In this document: piece after piece, positions 4,469 to 25,500 of the stretch
Layout: each line of letters opens with the position of its first letter
Position numbering within the stretch: position 1 is the stretch's first letter
NCBI GenBank assembly: GCA_032158295.1
Contig: CM063249.1
Coordinates: 4,045,195 to 4,109,194, forward strand
Source: Pycnopodia helianthoides
Lineage: Eukaryota; Echinodermata; Asteroidea; Forcipulatida; Asteriidae
Reading direction: 5' to 3'
DNA length: 64,000 nt
Program-made: the position numbers and the translations under genes
Notes under the pieces: model-generated
Seen by the model: only the letters and a program-made list of their open reading frames with translations
Databases searched by the model: none
What the model was told of the DNA's origin: nothing

Positions 4469-4558
4469 ATTGTAATAACACCTGTGTGAACGGTCAACTT
4501 ACTGTCGACCCTTGTGGATGCGCATGTGATACGCCATGGACAGGACCAGACTGTTCAG
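4469..4558 (+). CDS. RTK exon: EGF-like module
   Basis: Acceptor 'TTTTATTTTAG' and donor 'CAG|GTAAGG' bound a 90-nt phase 1-1 exon. It reads [10 protein letters not shown]... with the six-cysteine spacing C-x3-C-x9-C-x-C-x-C-x8-C and ends in 'WTGPDCSG'. The module matches those at 19985 and 20328. Attachment to the kinase gene is inferred from orientation, module type and phase. Confidence 0.7.
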
Positions 4559-7500
4559 GTAAGGAAAATTCAAACAGTTTATTATTCAAGGAAAAAAAAG
4601 TAAGGTGACATTTCGCTATGTTTTATCCAAAACCATTCTTAAGAAAGACAAAGTGAGAGCAAGACATGTATATCAGATAGGACAACAACAAATTATGTAA
4701 GTTCTGTATAAAGTGGAGAAATACTTTGGGGTTGATCAAAGACAAATTTGAACCAATGACATCCGGATTTACGTGCCGGCGCTCTACCAACTGAGCTATC
4801 TACCTCTATGTTGGCGGTCTCCCTATTTTGTCAACATCTTCGTTCGAGGGGAGCCAGTCAAAATAGGGAGACTGCCAACATAGGGCTAGACAGCTCAGTT
4901 GGTAGAGCGCCGGCACGTTAATCTGGAGGTCGTTGGCTCAAATTCTGCCTAGTCATTTCTTTTTTGTTCAACCCGAAATTATTTAAAATTTACCCGGTCA
5001 GTTTCCCTTGTGGCTTATTAATTGATATTCAAAGTGGAGACATACCCGGTCAGTTTCCCTTGTGGCTTATTAATTGATATTCAAAGTGGAGACAATAGTG
5101 TGTTGCAAACTGCATATCTTTGTTAAAAAAATATAAAAAAAACAGTACCAAACACCATAGACCTTTACCATGCTGCCACCATATTGGTAATGTTTCTTGT
5201 GTCCAATAACAGTAATAGTTGCTAAAAGTCAATGTACACAAAGTAACCAGCCTATTTGCTTTTCCAGCCTCGGTTTGGTTACATTGATTTGAATGGGAGA
5301 AAATCAAGATGGCCGCACCACGATAAAGGTTAATTAATTGGTTTCAACTGGTTGCTAAACTCACTGGTAATACAGTATGAGGGGCAGTAATAAATACAGC
5401 ATTTTTTGTGGTTTAATTTCTTCAATGAAATCTGACTGTTTGTTTGTTTGTTTGGAGCAGAGAAAACTTTGTGTATAGGAGCTTTAAAATGTACAAATAA
5501 CTCTGCTCAAAAATTACTCTGTTTTTTGTTTAATATCATGGTATTAATATTTAAAAAAAATTATTTATTAATACTTTTTGTGGTTAACAATGTTTTGCTT
5601 ACAACCAGTATAAGAAAACACATTACTACGCACTCGACAATACAGTTGTCAACATGTATTGTTCTCCAACCAGTGCTTCAATGGTGAAACAAGTAGTGGG
5701 GCTAAATTGACTCTTTCAAAAACCAAAGTTCTGTATTTTTCCCTTCAAATTCTTTTACTTAACAGTTTGTTCAGTGACTTGTGAATATGAAGGGACTCAG
5801 AATGACACTCTGTGTACGTGTTCATGTATTCAACCTATGTGTTTTTTGTTATCCTTAAAGGAACATTAAAGAATTGGTTTTTGCTAACAAAACAGTTGCT
5901 GGCAGTGTACGCACTTTATGTAATCCACCATATACATAAACTGACAAACCTGTAGAAGTTTGAGATCAATCGGCCATCTTGGTCACGAGAAAATAGTGAA
6001 AAACCGATTACACATTTGCATGAAACCACATAGAATCAACAAATGAATAAAACGCTCACTGAGCGATAAACTCCAATCGGAAAATTAGTTTATTCATTTC
6101 TCATCAAATATGGCATTTCAGACGGAAATATTTCAAGGGATATTTTCTACTATCATCATCATTAGACCGTGTAAGTTTTATGTAAATCTGTGATCAAAAA
6201 GTATATTTTACAAGTTTTTTTCTGACCAATTCTGTGATGTTCCTTTAACAATCCTGTTTAATACATTTTAGGTAACATGTGTCACTGTTTATTAAACTTT
6301 ACTAATGAAGCAAAGAAGCACTGGCAGTTAATTTGAGTGAATTATGTTTTTTTATTTTTCAAAATTTGTTCGTGTAATTAGCTGTTCCGACCTTCCAGTC
6401 GGAACAGGTATTGTTTTCGTCAAGATTTTCAAAACGTTTTACAAACGGTTTTAGCTGTTCCGGACTTTCAGTCGGAATAGCTATTGTCGAGATTTTTTAT
6501 TCTTTTTCACTATTATTATTATTTCTTTCCCACAACCCCATTGACTTAACCTGTGACTTTTTCGAACGCCATAACTCATTCACGTGACAGCGGTGTGAAT
6601 ATTCAATTAGTCAATCTGGTTAACACCATATCTCTAGAATTACACATCCGATCCTCAAACTTCAGTTATGGACTTGTCTTGTAGTGTAGATGTGCAATCT
6701 GGCCTAACATTTGCCAACACGTCATCATGACGTCACTTTTTTGCGCGTTTTCTATCTGTGTAAAAAACCAATGGCTCTAAAAAAAAAATAATGTTTAAAA
6801 CACAACTTTTCAGAATAAGTTGCATTTTACTTACTTATAATACACAAATCATGTTTCAAACACAAATGCTTTTAATAAGAGTTATTCCAGGCCATTAAAT
6901 CAAATACAATGTAGTTCCACGATAATTAGCGATTTAAGATTGGTAAATCTGAACTCCCATGAAACAAATTCTATATTGCGCAATCACGGCAATGCGTCGG
7001 AGATTGCGCCGCTGTTTATTCCTAACCGAAGGTTGACCAATTGGTTTGTACGTACCCCATTGGATTTGTGCGTGACCAACATGTTATTCCGAGGTAAGTT
7101 AAGGTGTTTTTTTAAAGGCATTTGATTGGGATAAGTTACATACCATCTTGTACCTTATCAAATTTATTAGTATGAAAAACACAATGTTTTTATGGGACTA
7201 CTAATCTTTTTCACAGCCAAATAAACACGCAGTGTTTTTTCAGACTTTTAAATTGGGGTTAGGAGTCCTTTTTTATTTTAATCTTAGAAGAAAATAAAGA
7301 GTAGTTATCATAGAATTATAAATTGTTGTATCAAATTATACGTCATACTTTTAATCTAGTTTTTTAAGTATTATTAACCAGTTGTTAACTTTAAGAGTTA
7401 ATGTCCGGTTAATGTTATCAATTACTTAAATTATCACGTATCCTTCGGTTTGGTTCGATTAATTTACAAAACTTCCACACATCTTATAATAAGATAATTT

Positions 7501-22500: not shown

Positions 22501-25500
22501 ATTTTTGAAAAATACAACCAAAAACAACACTCATAAATAAAATGTGTATCTGAAATCGAACAAACTGATTAAATACCTCTAGATGTCGGTACTTCGTACT
22601 CATCAGCACAGTCAGAAAAATCAGTTTCAGGCTCATTCTCAAATCGAACTCGCTTGAATCTGCGCTTGGTGCCACCGTTCCCTAAAATACAATCAATTAA
22701 TGTAAAAAGGTAAGCATTGTTGGGTGTAAACAAGGCCCGAATAAATTAAGAAAAACGAATTCATTTGAAGATTTCAATCAAAAGTCAATTATTTATCTTA
22801 AAGTGTTTCTCAAAAAGGAACATTTGATCAAAATACCGCATTGAAATTGTTTGGTTGCACTATTCCCACATTACAGTTTCATGGGTGAACCATTACTCAA
22901 CATAAATTCTGATTAGATTTGGAGTTAATTTCAAAGCTTTCATCACTAAACTTCACTGAATTACCTGGTTTGTTGTTACTGATATCTGTCAAAGGCAAGT
23001 TAACATCAACTTCACAGTCATCGTCGCTGTCGATTTCAGTGAAACAGTGTAGGTTAAGGGATTGCTTGAGGGCATTCACAGTTGATGTATCTGCAAAGTT
23101 TCAACAGAGCAATATTTTAACTGATAGTTTTTTGTGATGTTTGCAAACTGCTGGTATTGTTGTTGTTTTTAATCAAGCATGGTTGTAAATGGAATTTAAA
23201 TTTGATGTTTATTGTTCTCTACAGGTAATTCAACTATGAAGTTTGGGGATCAAAGGAACGTCTAAAATAAAGCACCAAAGTGTATAAGTTGAAAATGCCA
23301 GAAAGTACAACGACCACAAATATAAATAATTGAGCGGCGTATAGCCTTATGGCGTGGGGGGGGGGGTAGGTGGACAAATTGCCCTCCCTGGATTTTTGTG
23401 GGATAAGATTGGGGACGGTAAACATTTGGGTAAAGACAATTAAATACTTTGTAATTGTTTTTATACTATTTGATTCTTATTATGACAGGTTAGGCGATGT
23501 TTTTGTGCGGAAGAGCAAAATCTTACATGTAACCATCATGGTGGATGAAATCATTAGAAAAGACCATTGTTTAGCCACAAAAGAACAAGTTTGATTGCTA
23601 GAATTTGAAAGCACGATTATAGAGAAAAAAGGTTTTCAAAAAAGGGAAAGCATGATTTCGTTCTTCCACTCACAAACAAAGTGGGGATATAAATGTGGCT
23701 TTCCCCCTCCCTCACCCCCCTCCCCCCCCCCCAAACACACACATCCTAAAAATTATACAAAATATGAAGCCAATTCAGACACGGATCACTTACACTTACT
23801 CTTACCTGATTTATTGTTACTGACTTCTGACAAAGGTAAGTTGACATCATCTGCACAATCATCATCACTGTCGATTTCAGTAAAACAGGGTAGGTCGTTT
23901 GATTTATGAAACACCAAAGTATCTGTAGGAAATAACACTAACAGGTTAATTTAATCTTTTGTAATTTTAGTCGTGCAATTTAATCTTGTTTATAAGTGCC
24001 TTTTAAGGCTCAACAATCGCTTCACAAAGAACCACTTATAATTTAAGCAAACCTTTTACATCAGGTTGTAGGTCCTTGAGCCTTCTCAAACTTTTGCAAA
24101 GAAATACTACCAATTTGACCTTAACTTCTGGTCGAAATCGCACAACAGTAAAATCACCAAACTTCAACTTCAACTTATCACGCGTTGACACAAACCTGAC
24201 CCCAGCGATACCCGAACACCTAGTGTTTGTTTGTACAAACACTTAATGTCTAGTTTTGAACTTTTATTGTACAGACGTAAATGACTGTGCAAGTGTCTCT
24301 TGTTTTAACGAAGCAGCATGTACGGACATCATTATATGGCTATGCGTGAACTTGTGCACCTGGTTGGCTCGGCAACAACTGCGAACGAGGTACACCCTCC
24401 TGCTTAAGCGAATTTTCAGGGTTGATAGACTTCAAAATCAACAAGCAAAGCAGCTTTGGTTTATGATTGACAGTGAACCCAAATGCTGTTGCAGTGATAA
24501 CTCTCATCCACAGACAAACTATCTCCATTACCCCCATACCTCCAGTTCCCCCAAACTCCCATTACCGACATATCCCCAAATACGCATTTGCCCCCATAAC
24601 CCCCATTATCCCTACACGCCCACCCCACACCCCCATTCCACACATATCATCATACCCTCGTACCCCATTACCCCCATTGTGCAACATCCCAAATAGGCCT
24701 ACTTCTATTGTCACGCAGGGGGAAAAAATCCACTGAATATTTGTGATGACCACTACTGGAACAAGTTGTGTTCATGTTTGTACTTTTTTTGTTTTTTTTT
24801 TACAGTGGATACTCCAACGCAAGGACCTTCAACAAGTAAGTAAAGGGTCCAGAGATAGGTACTTGCCTTTGACGGCACGGATTTAGACGCTCGACAGTAG
24901 TATCACAACAAAGTCCCCCATGCGTGTGAAAAGAAAAAAAATCATGTGATGGAACGAAGGCAGCCAGCTTCTTCATGCATTATGGACCATTTTGGCACTC
25001 GATTTTACGGCTTTTTATGTCCGATTCATACCATTATAGGCCTATCCGACACACCATTATGTCCGACACGCCATTATGTCTAACACATCACCACCATGAC
25101 CGACACACCATTTTGTCCGACACAGTACCATTATGTCCGACACACCTTTATGCCCGACACACCATTATGTCCGACACACTATTTTGTCAAACACACCATT
25201 ATGTCCAACACATCATTATGTCCGACATACCATCATGTTCGACACACCATCATATCTGAAACACCATTATAACCGACACACCATTTTGTCAGACACACCA
25301 TTATGTCCAATAAACCATTATGTCCGACACACCATTATGTCAAACCCCAATGTGTCTGGTAAACCTTGTACAGTGTGTAACCTTCTATTTTATTCTCTCC
25401 TCTCGTCACTTGAACGAAAAATTAATTTATAGTAACCCCTAGAGAAATTGTTGGAATTCTTGCGGCTGGTATCCTCATTGGGGTAGTTGGATTCGCTCTT

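Follow-up and report, generated by a model that had tools for sequence, protein, structure and literature searches.

Tie receptors carry an ectodomain of EGF and Ig domains with fibronectin repeats; shuffling of symmetrical (phase 1-1) EGF exons is a known general pattern, and piggyBac-like miniature inverted-repeat transposable elements (MITEs) have TTAA at both ends together with terminal inverted repeats. That receptor tyrosine kinases undergo domain shuffling has been amply documented (PMC8662651). The gene considered here lies on the + strand of a 64,000-nucleotide stretch of Pycnopodia helianthoides DNA (assembly GCA_032158295.1, contig CM063249.1, positions 4,045,195 to 4,109,194; the whole stretch is called the window, and positions are counted from its first letter); judged from its sequence, it is probably the 3' portion of a gene for a receptor tyrosine kinase, one whose family has expanded in sea stars. 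It appears reasonably likely that in this gene, which probably still works, symmetrical EGF modules are undergoing exon turnover. The extracellular side would be built of small symmetrical EGF exons in birth-and-death turnover, with new copies arising by tandem duplication and existing ones being lost to substitutions at splice sites, inserted elements, truncation or frameshift. The current product would likely consist of at least two EGF modules (e1 and e2), a linker, a transmembrane segment and the kinase, and we infer that it works as a receptor. Phase borders, tandem duplication and frame-safe loss are as in the known shuffling of 1-1 EGF modules, with nothing different in kind; the locus is a compact one-gene example of several damage routes of such exons, with the signalling frame untouched and relatives bearing another ectodomain.

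The kinase half of the gene (24806-32188) comprises 11 exons, of which 432 codons and the stop are open, with AG and GT at all introns; an earlier note made from the sequence of the window (the original prediction), in which this half had been called clean over 432 codons, was right on this point. The tyrosine kinase domain was matched by PF07714 (E 2e-92), the catalytic motifs HRDLAARN and DFG are present in the translation, and a single transmembrane segment lies N-terminal of the kinase, one stretch only being found (Table 1). Structure search with the kinase gave a chain of the EGF receptor at the top; nearly all others among the 60 listed were FGF receptors 1-3.

Protein search over 5.8 billion proteins (7971 candidates scored; 6696 matches, of which the best 120 are listed) gave Asterias rubens and A. 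amurensis as the top four listed kinase relatives; the next thirty listed were mostly from Patiria, Acanthaster or Asterias, one coral and two brittle-star rows included, and further down the best 120 of 6696 arthropod Cad96Ca receptors and unnamed rows predominate. A tree of 43 rows was made from the window kinase and 42 of the 43 rows picked from the best 120 (P0085, without the trimming motif, was omitted). Five Asterias rows formed the closest group of the window kinase (support 100/99; identity 83-87% over 253-323 residues); by this kinship the window would probably be taken for sea-star DNA. These nearest kinase kin, P0001-P0004 and P0014, are named 'Cad96Ca-like', 'Tie-1-like' or uncharacterized; the stretch 'KMA-GS' before the kinase and the C-terminal NEKL are common to P0001-P0004 and the window receptor.

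Ectodomains among the other asteroid relatives (Patiria, Acanthaster, Asterias) are varied, their kinases being related. The Pfam accessions of P0002 and P0003 (both A. amurensis) are presumably those of Ig-type domains, and we take those of P0007 and P0016 to be WSC and sushi, that of P0015 to be Ig and those of P0023 (A. amurensis) to be LDL-receptor-type repeats. P0005 has no Pfam domain besides the kinase; in P0023 one EGF-like stretch was seen by eye, of a type other than the EGF exons of the window. Because P0002 and P0003 carry these Ig-type domains and the window gene EGF exons, ectodomain type differs among close kinases: as read from the sequences, kinases about 85% identical have different types of ectodomain. 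The C-x-C EGF pattern N-terminal of the kinase was matched by 0 of the best 120 of 6696 relatives. When the N-terminal regions of 29 relatives, out of the 39 best, were used as tblastn queries against the window, no exon of the Ig, WSC or sushi kind was recognised; outside the kinase and juxtamembrane parts the best match had E 0.19 (best 60 matches listed). As a gene for a receptor tyrosine kinase with EGF modules it would resemble the Tie receptors; it would differ from them in that no Ig exon was recognised in the window (the queries being the listed relatives, not Tie) and in that its nearest kin are asteroid receptors. No paper on this receptor was found by title or beginning of abstract, which is no claim that none is in print.

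Three EGF exons with complete coding parts, e1, e2 and e3, were compared by leave-one-out: protein profiles made from two of them were searched against the six-frame translation of the window (3393 pieces). In this way e2 was recovered at E 7.7e-08 and e3 at E 2.6e-06; Pfam EGF models match all three only below their cut-offs. By these E values chance patterns are rejected as the source of e2 and e3, less firmly in the case of e1. The predicted structure of e2 is of low confidence (pLDDT 69, pTM 0.29; two short strands), and no PDB match to the predicted fold was obtained at E up to 10. That e2 is fully sound, that e1 looks sound and that one exon, namely e3, is without its acceptor AG had all been stated in the original prediction and agree with the borders, phases, lengths and cysteines collected in Table 1.

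Table 1: Exons, exon relics and the neighbouring element on the + strand of the window
Feature	Positions	Strand	Remarks
EGF exon e1, sound	4469..4558	+	AG/GT borders, 90 nt, phase 1-1, six Cys
Possible further EGF trace, weak	5658..5700	+	nhmmer E 0.11; may be chance
EGF exon relic e4	5766..5835	+	acceptor AG kept, 23-24 codons open, five Cys; EGF profile match ends at 5835
MITE-like element	5859-6244 (with TTAA 5855..6248)	+	386 bases, terminal inverted repeats 12/14, TTAA on both sides
EGF exon e2, sound	19985..20077	+	AG/GT borders, 93 nt (divisible by 3), phase 1-1, six Cys
EGF exon e3	20328-20420	+	coding part sound, six Cys, GT donor, phase 1-1; AA at 20326-20327, not an acceptor AG
Truncated tandem duplicate of e2 and its 5' intron flank	20752..20880	+	exon part from 20852, stop after ten residues
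Frameshifted EGF exon relic	24275..24389	+	AG and GT borders, 115 nt, not divisible by 3
Linker exon	24806..24835	+	30 nt, phase 1-1
Transmembrane exon	25433..25577	+	only 19-residue Kyte-Doolittle means >=1.6 among 432 residues, best 2.78
Juxtamembrane exon	25741..25802	+	
Eight exons: juxtamembrane, tyrosine kinase domain, C-terminus with stop	26324..32188	+	PF07714 match, splice models

Comparison of e2 with e3 gave differences at 13.4 of 18.3 silent sites and 19.6 of 74.7 replacement sites (pS 0.73, pN 0.26); the pN/pS ratio is 0.36 (bootstrap 0.19-0.62) and was equally low in 1 of 5000 unconstrained simulations. The trend is the same in the relic e4, for which 21 codons were compared (pS 0.67, pN 0.24 vs e2; pS 0.53, pN 0.28 vs e3). 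Pairs of e1 with e2 and e3 (pS 0.70-0.77, pN 0.41-0.45) are saturated at silent sites and little informative. Since the difference is mainly at silent sites, selection, as read from these ratios, has held e2 and e3 for most of their history; with silent sites near saturation and the exons short, the constraint speaks of the past and says nothing of today.

The damaged exons differ in the kind of damage. The relic e4 was recovered at E 6.5e-08 by the profile of e2 and e3; with the profiles of the remaining exon pairs its E values were only 0.0048 and 0.0013. Its EGF pattern is followed by 19 bases and then by the TTAA (5855-5858) that opens the 386-base element, a second TTAA standing at 6245-6248; a copy of this element, 93% identical, is found at 50670-51072 (TTAA at the left end, AATTAA at the right). 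By its TTAA framing and inverted ends the element may be a piggyBac-like MITE. The element may have broken e4 or, since the 19 intervening bases differ from the expected exon end, may have inserted into e4 already broken. Of the statement in the original prediction that this exon had lost its 3' third, the damage stands and the simple cut-off does not, the pattern ending 19 bases before a TTAA-framed element. The partial duplicate of e2 is 91.7% identical to 19885-20005 along 121 bases, after which the match ends, in accordance with its earlier description as truncated; inspection of the longest 25 inverted pairs, out of 43 in 20690-24420, revealed no transposon ends as the cause of truncation. 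The frameshifted relic, also called so before, begins with DVNDC, by which we take it to be of the calcium-binding EGF type; no Pfam match was obtained for the reading as it stands. The earlier account of six EGF-type exons or pieces mostly holds, with the weak trace at 5658-5700 as an addition that may be chance. Related repeat pieces were observed at 24054-24255 and 31174-31672, the first ending 20 bases before the frameshifted exon.

Seven splice models were joined, inclusion of e4 lying outside them. Six (e1+e2; e1+e2+e3; e1+e3; e2 only; e1+e2+extended e3; linker first) reach the kinase stop, and the seventh, with the frameshifted exon 24275-24389, breaks the kinase frame and stops at codon 113 of 532. 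The claim that intact borders are 1-1, so that bad modules can be skipped, is thereby upheld: because every sound module is of phase 1-1, a broken exon can be skipped and the kinase frame survives. Most likely, to judge by these models, the damaged exons are skipped in splicing.

It is possible, if on the unlikely side, that e3 is still used, either through an acceptor further upstream or because the AA is a variant of a single allele or of the assembly. The exon is otherwise perfect, and the nearest upstream in-frame acceptor, at 20257-20258 (exon start 20259), would lengthen it by 23 open codons with the frame readable as far as the kinase stop; however, an equally open frame occurs in 27% of random intron windows of 69 bases, so that the extended e3 is weak evidence, and the extension would bring an odd cysteine and a hydrophobic stretch. 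In simulations e3 kept its cysteines and frame in 4% of runs after 12 random changes and in 46% after 3. Given these simulations and the otherwise intact exon, the acceptor change is likely recent, an allele, an error or a sign of another use of e3; if the exon has lost its acceptor at all, it has probably done so only a short time ago. A bolder reading, that the ectodomain evolves far faster than the kinase and that e3 was lost so recently that the number of EGF modules may segregate among individuals, is a long shot; should the e3 lesion segregate, the receptor would offer a live polymorphism in module number for study, and otherwise this is ordinary exon turnover.

The original prediction had the ectodomain shrinking under relaxed constraint while the signalling half is kept. 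The sound kinase half agrees with this, as does the tally of three clear relics and one lost-acceptor exon vs two sound exons; yet one-way shrinkage appears rather improbable. Against it stand the strong silent-site excess between e2 and e3, the absence of a stop or lost cysteine in e3 (see the simulations above) and the gain by the array of a partial e2 copy; relics in introns would be expected under steady turnover too, and the full array may extend outside the window. Turnover explains the facts at least as well as a shrinking ectodomain.

Several points weigh against a single gene with turning-over EGF modules. The joining of the EGF exons to the kinase exons is something we infer from genomic sequence; agreement of phase alone has a one-in-three chance. 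e1 was recovered by the e2+e3 profile only at E 0.18 (rank fifth) and, this link being weak, rests on its cysteine pattern and splice sites. e1 and e2 lie 15.4 kb apart, with an apparently whole retrotransposon in the interval. On the + strand left of 24.8 kb a strict simple rule gave 0 candidates for a first exon that combines a signal-peptide-like sequence with a phase-1 donor; the gene start may lie outside the window, and the EGF array may therefore extend beyond its left edge. Searches for relatives sharing this EGF array gave none with E up to 10, either with residues 1-170 (238 candidates) or with residues 1-92 (60 candidates), a weak negative, as both searches detect only relatives with exact shared five-residue words. 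It is nevertheless quite improbable that the EGF exons belong to another or dead upstream gene, the kinase gene starting somewhere between 20420 and 24806 with little or no ectodomain: some predicted Asterias relatives do have short ectodomains (P0001) and e1 and e2 lie far apart, but the exons share the strand and a compatible phase, the strict rule leaves no first exon at 20420-24806, and no + strand exon of another kind was recognised between (Pfam scans of three + frames from 1 to about 26000, stops as X, gave only e1 as a weak EGF match, E 9.8, and are insensitive, having missed e2 and e3).

The retrotransposon between e1 and e2 (7187-13653, - strand) is apparently whole and of the tyrosine-recombinase type, with reverse transcriptase/RNase H and recombinase frames and a 371-residue frame without Pfam match. 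Its direct repeats are split (7187-7608 equals 8158-8578 at 99.5%; 7873-8163 equals 13363-13653 at 99.3%), an arrangement that we take to be of the Ngaro/PAT type; it is probably a recent insertion. A 130-base satellite is also found between e1 and e2, in three arrays with similar units (13717-14544, 15306-16111 and 18498-19061). Exon-like open pieces on the - strand at 20842-23950 lie within the intron region of the kinase gene, with no Pfam family above cut-off; they include a duplicated acidic piece (22961-23054 and 23802-23895, 85%), of a host gene or a transposon.

In the remainder of the window, 53077-63051 (+ strand) is probably another gene, with C8 domains above cut-off and von Willebrand D matches below it (53077-53673, 57379-57798); its cysteine-rich stretch at 62941-63051 presumably resembles TIL domains. 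At 2960-3603 a 36-base tandem repeat (17.9 copies) has long open frames on both strands.

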